This document shows positions 19,529 to 24,030 of a stretch of 64,000 nt of DNA, one piece after another; the stretch's first letter is position 1, and the number at the start of each line of letters is the position of its first letter. The notes under the pieces are model-generated. The model was not told where the DNA came from. It did not search any database and was given only the letters and a program-made list of their open reading frames with translations. Location of the stretch: NCBI GenBank assembly GCA_001796335.1, contig MGMF01000025.1, forward strand, positions 62,001 through 126,000, in the 5' to 3' direction. The position numbers and the translations under genes are program-made. The stretch is from Chloroflexi bacterium GWB2_49_20 (GTDB lineage: Bacteria > Chloroflexota > Anaerolineae > Anaerolineales > Villigracilaceae).

Positions 19529-19575
19529 ACCCTGAAGGTTTTCCCGGCTATCGGTTTTTCTAAAATGAAATTCTC

Positions 19576-19609
19576 CTCCCCCAAATTCTGATTTTCGGAT
19601 TTGGGGGAG
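19576..19609 (+). terminator. Hairpin after the FAD oxidoreductase gene
   Basis: Arms CTCCCCCAAAT (19576-19586) and ATTTGGGGGAG (19599-19609) are perfectly complementary with a 12-base loop. No T-run follows, so it may be a repeat-type hairpin and not a true terminator. Confidence 0.5.
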
Positions 19610-19628
19610 GCTGGGGTGGGGGTCAACC

Positions 19629-19806
19629 CGAACAGCCCATACACCAGCCAACGCGTTCAAACCTGACAGGTTTCATCGTGACCTGGGTCAATCGAAAGTT
19701 CTGTGTATCAAATTCGACTCGTAGATCAAACTTCTACGGAAACCTGTCAGGTCTTTTTGTGGACTCGATCTCACGCTGGATCATTTCCTTCTCCTGTGGC
19801 GTCCGG
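19629..19806 (-). pseudogene. Relic of a methylase/restriction-enzyme C-terminal tail split by a 92-bp element
   Basis: On the minus strand, bases 19806-19755 read RTPQEKEMIQREIEST in a frame different from the overlapping membrane gene. This is the helical tail typical of type I/IIG N6-adenine methylases and related enzymes. The palindrome-ended element 19661-19752 follows, then a degraded LVYGLFGLT, which corresponds to the LVYELYGLT motif that normally follows directly. A similar broken cassette lies at 23672-23870. No intact parent gene is in the window. Confidence 0.55.
19661..19752. repeat. 92-bp palindrome-ended element, copy R1
   Basis: The ends are a perfect 14-bp inverted repeat, ACCTGACAGGTTTC (19661-19674) and its complement (19739-19752). 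Each end is itself nearly palindromic. The internal sequence is strongly alike in copies at 23575-23666 and 23748-23838, with matches such as TTTCATCGTGACCTG and ATCAAACTTCTACGGAAA. Size and ends suggest a MITE or REP-like element. Confidence 0.8.
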
Positions 19807-20649
19807 GCGCAGGTAACGGAGGTACGCGATGACAACTACCAAACCGACCAGTGTGAGCACCGCGAATAACGGAACTGCACCCAAAGACGCTGTCGGATCA
19901 CTAAGATGACCAAACACCTGGTCAACCGCGATGCTCGCTGTCTCGATAGTCAGCATCGAGAGCATTAAACCAACGAGGAGATAACCCCAGCTCTTTCGTT
20001 GCCACAACCACACCGCGCCAAGAATGCCAAGAGGGAGTGCAAATCCCAAATCCAGCACATGGACCGGGCTGGTTAGCATGTTCGTTCCATGAAGAAAGCC
20101 TGGTGTCGTGGGCTCAAACATGGCAGGGACAATCTGGGACATCCAGGTGAAGAAAAAGAACACAGAGGTGACTAGAATATAAATTGCAAAAATCCGCACT
20201 GGCAAATTGGTGGCAAACCGGGCGCGCATTTCATCCACATCCACCTGGATTAGTAATGCCACAATTGACCAGAGTGAAAGTGAAAGCGATGCTATATAGA
20301 GCAGGAATAGTGGATTGAAGGCGATGTCAAAGGCAAAAAATACCGAGTTGTAGAGGATATAGCTGAGCGTGCCAGACCAGACAATCTGCGCTTTCCATGA
20401 ACCTCGTGCTGCCAGGATTATCGAGGCTACAAGGATGGGAATGGCAACCATGAGGATTACAACATCAGTACCCTGGGCATTACCAGCGGGCATGGGAGGA
20501 TCACGAAATATCCTCGGGAAAAAGGCGCCGATAGCCGACTTTACCAGGGTCACAACGGCAAGAGTGCCCGATAACCAATAGGCTAAAATCAGATTGGCAG
20601 GTGCATATCTATTGACTTGAATCGGATGAGGGGTGAGCGTTGTTGACAT
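19771..20649 (-). CDS. Polytopic membrane protein of unknown function
   Basis: A 292-aa protein with about eight predicted membrane helices, for example ILAYWLSGTLAVVTLVKSAI, VVILMVAIPILVASIILAA, IFAIYILVTSVFFFF and LFAVLTLVGLVVVIAYL. It has no motif I recognise. A strong ribosome site (AAGGAGGTACT then ATG) marks the start. The last ten codons (from RPDATGEG) overlap, in another frame, the methylase-tail relic. The native C-terminus may therefore have been replaced when that sequence inserted. It is monocistronic; the next gene upstream is the ATP pyrophosphatase. Confidence 0.75.
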   Translation of the reverse strand: MSTTLTPHPIQVNRYAPANLILAYWLSGTLAVVTLVKSAIGAFFPRIFRDPPMPAGNAQGTDVVILMVAIPILVASIILAARGSWKAQIVWSGTLSYILYNSVFFAFDIAFNPLFLLYIASLSLSLWSIVALLIQVDVDEMRARFATNLPVRIFAIYILVTSVFFFFTWMSQIVPAMFEPTTPGFLHGTNMLTSPVHVLDLGFALPLGILGAVWLWQRKSWGYLLVGLMLSMLTIETASIAVDQVFGHLSDPTASLGAVPLFAVLTLVGLVVVIAYLRYLRPDATGEGNDPA

Positions 20650-20800
20650 AGTACCTCCTTATAATCGTTCATTGGAATAAGGTATAAGATCCTGGACCAG
20701 CCTAATGTTCTCAACATTCACCTGCCTGTCCCTGGTGCTCTTCCAGGGGTCCGCTGCACACGGTGTCAGGCCGCCGCTTTTTGAGCAAGACATTTGCTCT

Positions 20801-21466
20801 TTAGTCGGGTATCAAATCACAGTAGCAAAAACGGTTTTCTCGTAAAATGATTTCTCCAGGTATGTATGAAACTCTCTCTTTGAAAATCGGTCCATCGTAC
20901 ACAAAAGAGTGATATTCGCCGTTCTCGCCGCACGCATCAACAGTTGGAGGCAGTTCGGACAGGAATTGCTCATCAATCACTCTACCAACAAATTGCCTGC
21001 CAAGCGTATGGGTGTCAACGCAGGTAGTGATCGCTTTGAAACCCAATGCTGTGAGAGAACGAGCTAGTTCTTGAGTGTCTCTTTTCCAGATAGGGAAAAT
21101 GCCCTGCATACCCAGTGTTGCAAGTTTGTCATCCCGATACTTCCGCAGGTCTTCCAGAAATATGTCTCCAAACACAACGGAGGTAACACCCATATCCTTA
21201 TATTTTGTAAGAACCTGTCCCATATTCGATTCATATTCTTCATTGGACGCATTCTTTGAAATGAACACTTTTTCAAGCGGAAAGCCCAACGAGGCAACTT
21301 GTCGCTCAAGCAGAATTCGCCGAACGCCGTGCATGCTGATTCGGTCATAGTCTTCGGTCACAGTTGTGAGCAAGGCGGATATTTGGTAGTTTTTATTCTT
21401 GAGGATTTCATATAGAGCCAGGGCACTATCTTTTCCGCCACTCCACGAAACGAGTACGCTTTCCAT
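20801..21466 (-). CDS. Dph6-like ATP pyrophosphatase (ATP_bind_4/DUF71)
   Basis: A 221-aa N-type ATP pyrophosphatase. The PP-loop SGGKDS is at residues 9-14 (MESVLVSWSGGKDSALALYE). Other family motifs are the VVFGDIFLEDLRKYRDD block, GIFPIWKRDT, and CGENGEYHSFVYDGP near the C-terminus. Eukaryotic and archaeal relatives amidate diphthine on EF2. Bacteria lack diphthamide, so here it probably makes a related amide or adenylated intermediate; the substrate is unknown. It is complete at normal length, and the start is fixed by the PP-loop. Confidence 0.88.
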   Translation of the reverse strand: MESVLVSWSGGKDSALALYEILKNKNYQISALLTTVTEDYDRISMHGVRRILLERQVASLGFPLEKVFISKNASNEEYESNMGQVLTKYKDMGVTSVVFGDIFLEDLRKYRDDKLATLGMQGIFPIWKRDTQELARSLTALGFKAITTCVDTHTLGRQFVGRVIDEQFLSELPPTVDACGENGEYHSFVYDGPIFKERVSYIPGEIILRENRFCYCDLIPD

Positions 21467-21646
21467 TGTTGTAAACCTTCCTTGTTACAGTAGTTCGTGT
21501 CCTTGCGGAAAAACAGATACACCGTTAAACGGTCCAACATTTGTGTGAGCGGAACGCATAATACCTTATAGACAATCCGTTAAATTAGAATGGGACAATA
21601 AAATTATAGCATAACCACCCATTTCACGAGCTGGAAAACAAACTAT

Positions 21647-21753
21647 CCTCCCCGTGCTTTTCGGGGAGGTGCCCCGCCGCAGGTCCCCGAAGGGGATTGG
21701 GGCGCACCTACGTGTCCCCGTGTTTTTGGGGGGCGTGTGCGCCCTCTTTTTTT
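21647..21753. repeat. Cluster of G/C hairpins between convergent-facing spacers
   Basis: Two hairpins: CCTCCCCGTG...CGGGGAGG (21647-21669), and arms GGGCGCAC (21700-21707) with GTGCGCCC (21737-21744) followed by TCTTTTTTTATT. The second has terminator form on the plus strand, yet no plus-strand gene precedes it. The loop block CGTGTCCCCGTGTTTTTGG recurs almost unchanged at about 23441-23462, so repeat origin is likely. Confidence 0.5.
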
Positions 21754-21829
21754 ATTCCCTTCCCAAAAAACGAAGCAGAACCCCAGATGCAGTGTGAGAT
21801 TATTCTTTCAACAGACCGACTTTCCCAAG

Positions 21830-23158
21830 TCATTCAGCTACTACAACTTGGTTCTTGCCAGCCTTTTTTGCTTTCCTCAATGCAGTATCAGCCTGGTTGA
21901 GCAGGTCAGTCAGAATTGAAGACTTTCCGTTACTGGTAGCGATCCCGATGCTGATCGTAATATTAAGTGAACCATCCGGGGTATTAATAAGCAAATCGCT
22001 AATACTGTGACTAATGCGTTCGGCGACTACACGGCCATCTTTCAGAGTGGCCTCTACAAGTAATATGACAAACTCGTCGCCGCCGAAGCGGCCTATGGAA
22101 TCCTCATTACGTATTTGTTTCTTGCTATTCTCGGCGACAACCTGAAGGGCTTGATCGCCGACCAGGTGACCATGGTTGTCATTTATTTGCTTCAGATCAT
22201 CAAGGTCCAAGATGAGGAGTGTCAGCGGATGTTTGAAGCGTTGAGAACGTTGAAACTCGAACTCTGCCAGATTGAGTATCTGGCGGCGATTATGGAGTCC
22301 TGTCAAGCTGTCGGTATTGGCTAACAGCTCCAACATTTGAGCCTCTTGGAGCAGTTTCTCGCGTTGGATGGTCAGCTCAACTTGGTGACTGATCGCTACT
22401 GCCAACTGTACATCGTGCTGACTAAAGGGCCTGGCGAGGGGATCCGTCTTGTAGGCGTATATAAGAGCGACCACGTCCTGCTCAATTATGACTGGAACAC
22501 ACAAAGCCGAGCAAATCTGGTGCTGAACATCACTGCTTTCAGGTTGCTTATCCTGTGAGCTCAGATCGGGGACGATCACTACCGAATGCAGTTCAATTGC
22601 CTGCCGGGTAATTGAACCTGGTAATTCCAAATCATCCAGCTTGTCGAAATAATCTGCCAGGATCACCCCGGCTTTCTCAGCTCCCATTGCCTGCTGTGTC
22701 AACTCGGCAATTTCCTTCAGCGCTGTATCCAGGTTGAGGATCATGGTCAGCCGGCTGGAAACAACATCCAGGAATACGGCATTTTGATCGATCGATTCAA
22801 GAAGAAGATCACGGGTGAGTGGACGGGTGCCCGAGAGTGCCAAAACAAGGGGTGGGGTGGCACCATTTTCCTGAAAGGTAGCATTGATGACAAATTGGCC
22901 AATACGAATCTGGTCCCCAGACTGAAAAGCATGCGGCTTGGTGATTCGCTCCCGGTTTACATACGTCCCATTGGTGCTTCCCAGGTCATTAATAACAGCA
23001 AGACCATTCTGGCAGTAGATCTCTGCATGCAAGCGCGAGGCAGACTCGTCCGCGATGATAATATCATTATCAGGCTTTCGTCCGAGGGTATTTTTTCCGG
23101 GCTTTACTTCATATTCGATTGGCGCGCTGGAAGGAGAACGAATTATTAATACCCACAT
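21830..23158 (-). CDS. FHA-GAF-GGDEF diguanylate cyclase
   Basis: A 442-aa cytosolic signalling protein. The FHA domain at 1-95 reads phosphothreonine (LGRKPDNDIIIAD, SRLHAEIYC, NDLGSTNGTYVN). The GAF-like domain at about 125-275 has ICSALCVPVIIEQDVVALIY. The GGDEF domain at about 280-440 keeps LTGLHNRRQ, ILDLDDLKQINDNHGH and the intact active site RFGGDEF. An inhibitory I-site RNED lies five residues before GGDEF, so product feedback by c-di-GMP is likely. Expected activity is synthesis of c-di-GMP from GTP, tuned by a phosphorylated partner and a GAF ligand. It is monocistronic, and no kinase gene adjoins. Confidence 0.93.
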   Translation of the reverse strand: MWVLIIRSPSSAPIEYEVKPGKNTLGRKPDNDIIIADESASRLHAEIYCQNGLAVINDLGSTNGTYVNRERITKPHAFQSGDQIRIGQFVINATFQENGATPPLVLALSGTRPLTRDLLLESIDQNAVFLDVVSSRLTMILNLDTALKEIAELTQQAMGAEKAGVILADYFDKLDDLELPGSITRQAIELHSVVIVPDLSSQDKQPESSDVQHQICSALCVPVIIEQDVVALIYAYKTDPLARPFSQHDVQLAVAISHQVELTIQREKLLQEAQMLELLANTDSLTGLHNRRQILNLAEFEFQRSQRFKHPLTLLILDLDDLKQINDNHGHLVGDQALQVVAENSKKQIRNEDSIGRFGGDEFVILLVEATLKDGRVVAERISHSISDLLINTPDGSLNITISIGIATSNGKSSILTDLLNQADTALRKAKKAGKNQVVVAE

Positions 23159-23398
23159 AGTGTTATTCTATTCTCCTGGATAATCTGATAAAATCTTGCT
23201 GAAAGGTAAATATCACGGGGTATGGGCTGCGAATAGGATTATGTAAATTTCCGGGTCAAATATTGCAAAATCTTTTTCTATTATATACCAGTTTTCATAA
23301 GTCACATTAGTAATGTCAGAGGCTGAATAATGCTTTCTCATTGTAAAAAGATGGCTGCTGCCTGGCCCGAGCCCGGTGCCAGTTGACGGTTGGAGGTA

Positions 23399-23428
23399 GG
23401 GGCGGGTCTTGCCTTATCGACCCGCCCC
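23399..23428. repeat. Hairpin repeat GGGGCGGGT...ACCCGCCCC
   Basis: Nine-base perfect arms at 23399-23407 and 23420-23428. A sister hairpin with the same GGTCTTG loop start lies at 33320-33340 inside a transposase relic. This suggests a REP-like family and not a gene terminator. Confidence 0.6.
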
Positions 23429-23547
23429 GTTTTCTGGGGGCGTGTCCCCGTGTTCTTGGGGGTGCCCTTCCGCGATCTTGATTTCATCTTCCGATAATCC
23501 ATACAACTCGTACACCAACTGATCAATCTCCCGCTCCCATTGACTCA
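23414..23547 (-). pseudogene. Relic of a methylase/restriction-enzyme C-terminus
   Basis: The minus strand from ATG 23547 reads MSQWEREIDQLVYELYGL and then SEDEIKIAEG before a low-complexity end. The IDxLVYELYGLxxxEI motif is the hallmark tail of type I/IIG and BREX-like N6-adenine methylases. The catalytic domains are absent. It is a stranded tail beside an R-type element. Confidence 0.6.
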
Positions 23548-23574
23548 TATCTGCTGCGGATTGGACGTATTCAG

Positions 23575-23666
23575 ACCTGACAGGTTTCATCGTGACCTGA
23601 GCCAATCGCAAGTCTGTGAATCATTGTCTACTCGATTGATCAGACTTCTATGGAAACCTGCCAGGT
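23575..23666. repeat. 92-bp palindrome-ended element, copy R2
   Basis: Left end ACCTGACAGGTTTC (23575-23588). The right end GAAACCTGCCAGGT (23653-23666) carries one mismatch to the left. The interior is similar to but more diverged than R1 and R3. Confidence 0.75.
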
Positions 23667-23671
23667 ATTTA

Positions 23672-23740
23672 TCAGGTCTTATTCTCCACGATCCTGATCT
23701 CTTCCTCAGTCAACCCATACAACTAATACACCAGCCGACG
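23672..23740 (-). pseudogene. Second methylase-tail relic with internal stop
   Basis: The minus strand reads LVY-stop-LYGLTEEEIRIVENKT then a stop. It is the same tail motif as the neighbouring relic, with an amber codon in place of the conserved Glu. It lies directly between elements R2 and R3. Confidence 0.55.
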
Positions 23741-23747
23741 CGTTCAA

Positions 23748-23838
23748 ACCTGACAGGTTTCATCGTGACCTGGGTCAATCGTAATTCTGTGAATCAAATT
23801 CGACTTGTTGATCAAACTTCTACGGAAACCTGTCAGGT
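23748..23838. repeat. 91-bp palindrome-ended element, copy R3
   Basis: Ends ACCTGACAGGTTTC (23748-23761) and its perfect complement (23825-23838). The interior is nearly identical to R1. The flanks also match R1: MPKKEMIQSEIEST on one side and the LVYELYGLT relic on the other. The whole cassette has therefore been copied. Confidence 0.8.
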
Positions 23839-24030
23839 CTTTTTGTGGACTCGATCTCGCTCTGGATCATTTCTTTCTTCGGCATCACTAGTTGTGGCAT
23901 TAACCAGTTCAAATAAGGGCAAGTTATCCGCATAACACCGGTATCGAATGAGTTCGATACCGCGACTCATCTGTTTGACAGCATGCTCGTCAAACTTGGA
24001 AAATTCGCCTGGCAAGGTGCGTCGCATACG
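23833..24030 (-). pseudogene. Fragment of a DUF5655-like protein
   Basis: A minus-strand reading with FSKFDEHAVKQMSRGIELIR and then YRCYADNLPLFELVNAT matches, from memory, the middle of 'predicted transport protein'/DUF5655 proteins. It has no start or N-terminal nuclease-like half, and its end runs into the repeat cassette. It lies just after the permease stop. The family call is tentative. Confidence 0.4.

Follow-up and report, generated by a model that had tools for sequence, protein, structure and literature searches.

Three copies (R1 to R3) of a palindrome-ended element of 91 to 92 bp lie in a 64,000-nucleotide stretch of contig MGMF01000025.1 of Chloroflexi bacterium GWB2_49_20 (hereafter the window, to whose positions all unprefixed coordinates refer), two of them within relics of a methylase gene tail. 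We are highly confident that R1 to R3 are non-autonomous REPINs of a divergent family of REP-associated tyrosine transposases (RAYTs; REP, repetitive extragenic palindromic), most likely moved by a RAYT, and that the window holds a duplicated cassette of methylase tail and REPIN. The 92-base element belongs to a widespread family of such tiny and probably mobile hairpin repeats in Anaerolineales.

Structure and distribution of the repeat family

As the original prediction had it, the element is palindrome-ended: the 11-mer ACCTGACAGGT starts R1, R2 and R3 and its inverse ends each of them (with one change in R2), R3 being 95% identical to R1 and 86% identical to R2. This 11-mer is found 23 times per strand in the genome of origin, mostly in inverted pairs, against 2 and 0 occurrences for a control in which the pattern was read backwards, and its abundance is therefore far beyond chance. 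Further near-full copies are present on contigs C16 (two), C12 and C15 of the same genome together with partial ones, and the outer arms pair in all seven full-length copies that were folded. Two of the features by which we tested for REPINs, namely two inverted, conserved short ends at a fixed spacing and the ability of these ends to pair into a hairpin, were found; the ends consist of two inverted REP-like cores, AGACCTGACAGGTTTC and GAAACCTGTCAGGTCT, about 81 bp apart start to start.

We sampled 150 genomes of the same taxonomic family, 52 of which (the genome of origin included) match a 93-bp query at E <= 0.001. A profile search on the fetched loci gave 152 distinct sites, and a contig scan found the exact-ended long form in 77 stretches of named contigs, sites and stretches not being mutually independent. 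The titles of the 77 stretches name Chloroflexi or Chloroflexota, Anaerolineae, Anaerolineales, Anaerolineaceae, Anaerolinea, Brevefilum and Candidatus Aquidulcis, and once just 'bacterium'. A length of exactly 92 bp was observed for 56 of 91 copies found by pattern (80 to 98 bp allowed), 49 of 66 copies of the main interior type (selected at 90 to 93 bp) and 96 of the 152 profile-found sites, while the interiors of the 66 main-type copies have a mean identity of only 50%, indicating that the spacer is conserved far more strongly in length than in sequence. Immediately flanking the 92 bp, AG stands at the left in 118 and CT at the right in 112 of 132 sites. The family is mainly extragenic, with 21 of the 152 sites overlapping an open reading frame (ORF) of at least 100 aa by more than 20 bp and 11 lying wholly inside one. 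A second interior type of 93 to 95 bp with the same ends was seen at L091, L093, L116, L126, L141, L142 and L152.

Two other identities for the element were considered and rejected. A structured RNA was rejected since Rfam gave nothing (no match in the window at gathering score, and only two weak sub-threshold matches from eight loci) and the interiors showed no folding advantage over shuffled sequence. A protein-coding element was rejected since any given reading frame stays open in at most 26 of the 66 main-type copies.

Exact-ended places in the 150 genomes fall into three length classes of about 29, 60 and 92 bp. By gap between the ends, 442 places were counted at 0 to 30, 106 at 31 to 61, 266 at 62 to 92 and 5 at 93 to 123 bp; among those listed, short places are nearly all 29 to 32 bp long, long places nearly all 91 to 93 bp, and 68 of 75 places of the middle class 57 to 63 bp. 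End-to-end spacing clusters at about 18, 49 and 81 bp, in steps of 31 to 32 bp, which is near three helical turns. Treated as an internal deletion of the long form, the middle class gave 0.73 versus 0.48 for shuffled sequence, with only three places testable from the fetched loci.

A RAYT subfamily as candidate mobiliser

At four loci (L070, L118, L119 and L146) the repeats flank or sit inside an open frame of 194 to 244 codons that encodes the motifs YNRG, HFH and YIHQNP, the latter two being invariant in the four sequences. We take HFH and YIHQNP to be the catalytic HUH and tyrosine motifs. The nearest NCBIfam model is REP_Tyr_transpos (REP-associated tyrosine transposase; E 7.6e-10). A protein search over the 150 genomes, with a cut of our own, delimited a RAYT subfamily in 11 genomes (eight best full and three split matches). 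In eight of these 11 genomes, 3 to 11 exact ends lie within 600 bp of the RAYT gene, and the three exceptions carry altered ends (a 96-bp element at L243, a 95-bp element at L244 and the short form at L242). By comparison, only one (L252) of 40 other RAYT-like ORFs, these being the ones in fetched loci and not all matches, has exact ends within that distance; another of the 40, at L254, is a 92-aa fragment that is 71% identical to the subfamily with no ends near it. Exact long copies are also more numerous where the subfamily is present, averaging 7.45 per genome in the 11 RAYT genomes versus 1.32 in the other 139 (Mann-Whitney U test, p 4.6e-5). PMC3390384 reports a RAYT-REP number trend of similar kind in Pseudomonas, as well as one strain whose RAYT gene is broken although it carries 999 REP copies.

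A whole REPIN lies in frame inside the RAYT gene, in the same loop, at L070:1943-2034 and L118:4185-4276. Both in-frame copies encode DL(T/S)GL at each end, and the RAYT gene at L146 retains one REPIN end at the same place.

Several results weigh against the assignment of the repeats to a REPIN/RAYT system. The match to REP_Tyr_transpos scores 38.8 bits, under the cut-off of 80, Pfam Y1_Tnp matches none of P0001 to P0004 at E <= 1, no relative of the RAYT was found in PDB by sequence, and AlphaFold modelled it poorly (mean pLDDT 40), giving no usable structure. The spacers show no conserved pairing upheld by compensatory changes (for 91 interiors, mean z was -0.14 on one strand and -0.04 on the other) and the consensus fold of the 66 main-type copies has no inner pair, whereas the SBW25 REPINs described in PMC3116915 have conserved inner pairing. 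The ends are without the GTAG tag of classical REPs, the bases beside them being AG and CT at most of 132 sites. Fifty-six of the 139 genomes without a subfamily RAYT still hold at least one exact long copy, and the genome of origin has no subfamily RAYT by protein search; P0001 has a single match there at E <= 1e-20, a 233-aa ORF of contig C9 that is 49% and 59% identical in two blocks and is without these ends within 600 bp. R1 to R3 are therefore probably orphaned from their cognate RAYT. Movement of the repeats is predicted; neither excision nor new insertion of a REPIN was observed.

A duplicated cassette explains the shared position of R1 and R3

The original prediction had also placed R1 and R3 between EMIQ(R/S)EIEST and an LVY piece on the coding strand, and R2 beside another tail relic. 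Both placements were confirmed, with the relics on the minus strand (Table 1): the downstream pieces read LVY..LYG or LFG, and R2 lies between the tail piece of R3 and a second, different relic. No frame is open across the element in the tails around R1 and R3.

Table 1. Repeats and methylase-tail relics in the window
Feature	Position	Strand	Description
R1	19661-19752	+	Long REPIN, 92 bp, inverted ACCTGACAGGT/ACCTGTCAGGT ends
R2	23575-23666	+	Long REPIN, 92 bp, right end ACCTGCCAGGT with one change from the inverse of ACCTGACAGGT
R3	23748-23838	+	Long REPIN, 91 bp
Cassette copy 1	19622-19792		Tail piece, R1, tail piece
Cassette copy 2	23709-23878		Tail piece, R3, tail piece
Relic EKEMIQREIEST, upstream part	19752-19793	-	Last two codons (KR) run up to or into R1
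Relic LVYGLFGLT, downstream part	19621-19647	-	Weak match, tblastn E 0.048
Relic KKEMIQSEIEST, upstream part	23838-23879	-	Methylase tail
Relic LVY*LYGLTEEEIRIVE, downstream part	23684-23734	-	Methylase tail, between R3 and R2
Second, different relic DMSQWEREIDQLVYELYGLSEDEIKIAEG	23465-23551	-	Beyond R2, within a 68-aa open frame

For the shared position, copying of a whole cassette and a specific target site had been proposed as alternatives, and the former is borne out by the sequence. The two cassette blocks are equal at 157 of 171 aligned positions (92%), and over the 40 bp beyond the edges identity drops abruptly, to 15% and 28%, so the edges are sharp. One 171-bp cassette copied once explains why R1 and R3 sit at the same position of the tail, without the element targeting that site. 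When the flanks of R3 are joined, they resemble an uninterrupted tail present in other genomes (86 of 105 columns at L338 and 77 of 103 at L304), with a small number of bases missing or altered where the flanks meet and no sign of a duplication. The repeat therefore most likely inserted into an intact methylase tail. The sole long open frame with the same tail in the genome of origin, of 965 aa on contig C11, is 67% identical to the query peptide and is too distant for an immediate donor.

The target-site alternative was not supported. Uninterrupted tails exist in relatives, and beside intact-looking long methylase ORFs in relatives (G077, G131 and G137) a copy of the element lies within about 10 bp behind the tail and not between EIEST and LVY. 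A crude tail-motif search over many genomes, which missed R1 as well as HsdS tails recognised by eye at L070, L118 and L119, flagged 15 of the 152 distinct sites, in eight loci, and none of the near-full copies on C16, C12 and C15 of the genome of origin. Our widest tail count, in which R1 and sites whose flanks cluster with tail-bearing or RAYT-bearing ones are included, is 36 of 152. Most copies, at least 116 of the 152, are therefore without such a tail, so that the outcome which the original prediction had named as speaking against it, numerous copies away from methylase tails, is largely what was found.

In the mechanism that we propose, a RAYT, presumably an HUH/tyrosine single-strand DNA nuclease, would recognise the REPIN ends and help to copy REPINs to new sites, often gene 3' ends. 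Tandem units of tail and REPIN would then arise by duplication in neighbourhoods where a restriction-modification (R-M) gene, a RAYT and a REPIN meet. In the genome of origin a REPIN most likely entered the tail of a type IIG-like methylase gene, after which that cassette was duplicated at a distance of about 4 kb; the methylase gene would since have been lost, as would the cognate RAYT, with the relics left behind.

A further palindromic repeat, CTCCCCCAAATTC...GGATTTGGGGGAG and variants, occupies positions 19570-19620 of the window. It stands beside several REPINs of the genome of origin, those at L039 and L044 among them.

Tail cassettes and tandem units at other loci

Similar arrangements were seen elsewhere. 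At L340 the order is full tail, altered-end repeat, tail, repeat, tail; at L348 it is tail, repeat, tail; and at L166 and L150 an HsdS-like tail (by eye) is repeated with the element. Most of 20 loci chosen for short tail ORFs or several tails have at least two tails, and three have these ends or altered ones. Type IIG-like methylase genes at L333 to L349 often have extra copies of the 3' tail downstream, mostly with no REPIN with these ends. Three methylase tails are interleaved with a different palindrome, GTCGAAATTAATTTCGAC, at L339:939-1271; this palindrome follows GTAG on one strand (by eye) and is perhaps a different REP type doing likewise. At L149:2244-2935, four REPINs at a constant gap of 102 bp each precede a copy of one gene start (MAKDAAYKEAEKKIAEAL... 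or a sequence close to it); the element is repeated here with the start of another gene, and tandem units are thus not special to methylases. Only 13 loci have neighbouring copies separated by less than 600 bp.

Association with restriction-modification genes

Neighbours of the RAYT were analysed at 13 of 15 fetched loci, L293 being dropped as its RAYT lies at a contig edge and L296 as no RAYT ORF was called there. The upstream gene of L296 is, by eye, presumably the start of the methyltransferase gene rsmI and so not an R-M gene. Three of the 13 loci (L300 to L302) hold more distant RAYTs without these ends. Pfam scans identified an R-M gene directly upstream of the RAYT at seven of the 13: HsdS at L291, L294, L295 and L301, an Eco57I-type gene at L289, an MmeI-type gene at L290 and Mrr at L292 (leaving out a 113-aa ORF inside the repeat array). 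A TIR-domain gene is found upstream of the RAYT at L299 and an HsdR gene downstream of it at L300. For other RAYTs, 19 upstream ORFs (part of 35 such ORFs) comprise four R-M genes and four gyrA. The difference between 7 of 13 and 4 of 19 is not significant (one-sided p 0.062); the p value is 0.028 for the strict subfamily (6 of 9) and 0.086 with L296 counted (7 of 14). In several genomes (L264, L267, L278 and L281), members of a more distant RAYT group are encoded immediately behind gyrA.

The neighbours of the repeats were compared with distant ORFs, all trimmed to their last 300 aa. Among 142 ORFs adjoining repeats in the 77 stretches, Methylase_S was the commonest Pfam family (6) and N6_Mtase was found twice, while neither is among the 25 of 134 families listed for 142 distant ORFs (taken from 237). 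The resulting p value for R-M families near versus distant, 0.0035, assumes that there are none in the distant set, for which those 25 families are listed. The methylase link of the element family is partly real. No title or abstract opening among the papers listed by our literature searches reports a link between RAYTs and R-M genes, and no passage on it was found by the terms looked for in PMC3116915, PMC3733652 and PMC3390384.

One extension of these associations, which we regard as unlikely, would make the RAYT/REPIN system a partner of R-M operons: the RAYT gene would follow hsdS, type IIG or mrr genes directly, and the REPINs would copy and keep 3'-end tail cassettes of those genes as a reserve for rebuilding or exchanging the ends of specificity genes. 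The repeated meeting of RAYT, REPIN and R-M gene ends suggests one route by which R-M genes shed duplicated tails.

Other origins of the repeats

Thirty-three of the 152 sites start no more than 6 bp from the stop codon of an ORF of at least 100 aa, whereas intergenic positions drawn at random from these loci would be expected to give 6.2. According to PMC3733652, REPs lie mainly downstream of genes and GTAG REPs often supply the stop codon, and the preference is therefore a known REP habit. It would also fit a hairpin that terminates transcription or stabilises mRNA downstream of genes and that has multiplied through ordinary duplication, no transposase being involved, as would the long outer stem, the T-rich right flank and the resemblance of the short form to a terminator hairpin. 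A hairpin role alone, however, needs neither a length-constant, unstructured spacer nor a tie to one RAYT subfamily, making this origin very improbable; hairpin function may be a side effect of the repeats.

Inverted ends of 16 bp, a near-constant length and interspersed copies are also what would be expected of a miniature inverted-repeat transposable element whose terminal inverted repeats are served by a DDE transposase encoded elsewhere. Target-site duplications, the sign of insertion to which the original prediction had pointed, showed no excess over shuffled flanks at any of six offsets in 132 of the 152 sites (20 were dropped for length, ends or short flanks), which fits REPINs, and the ends flank a RAYT gene instead, leaving such an element a slim prospect, although no systematic search for a longer element bearing these ends was made. 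An integron-like attC or other site-specific recombination site carrying gene tails as cassettes, suggested by the conserved ends, variable interior and arrays of tail and element, is close to negligible in our estimation, given that attC sites are expected to show inner pairing, which the spacers do not have, that closely spaced copies are confined to so few loci, and that the attC core boxes do not fit the element, though no integron integrase was searched for.

Significance and comparison with known systems

Recognition of these repeats as REPINs places a REPIN/RAYT system among Chloroflexota of a largely uncultured lineage. There, many genomes offer RAYT loci, altered ends and copy numbers for comparison, making co-evolution of end and transposase testable.

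Among known systems, as PMC3116915 describes them, the REPINs of Pseudomonas fluorescens SBW25 are alike in having two inverted conserved ends, a variable spacer of fixed length and an extragenic location, as well as clusters beside RAYT genes and tandem units that include flanking sequence. They differ in end sequence and in host, the hosts here being Anaerolineales, and in the spacing of the ends, which is 71 and 110 bp in SBW25 versus about 18, 49 or 81 bp here. The other comparisons rest on PMC3733652. GTAG REPs are likewise palindromic, RAYT-linked, mainly downstream of genes and often the source of a stop codon, but the present family is without their tag. TIRYTs and TIRtrons share with our loci a RAYT-like gene placed between non-GTAG repeats belonging to one repeat family, often as dimers; however, they have one terminal inverted pair, whereas the gene is bordered here by entire REPINs, often arrayed, and by eye the two REPINs at L240 seem to be in direct orientation. 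Rickettsia palindromic elements, according to the same paper, also have in-frame copies inside protein genes, but the gene that contains a whole copy here is that of the presumed mobiliser itself. The family is thus of a known kind, REPIN/RAYT, with two tested departures from the textbook form, the missing GTAG tag and the lack of conserved spacer pairing; its other unusual features are the three length classes, the in-frame copies in RAYT genes and the cassettes of R-M gene tail and REPIN.

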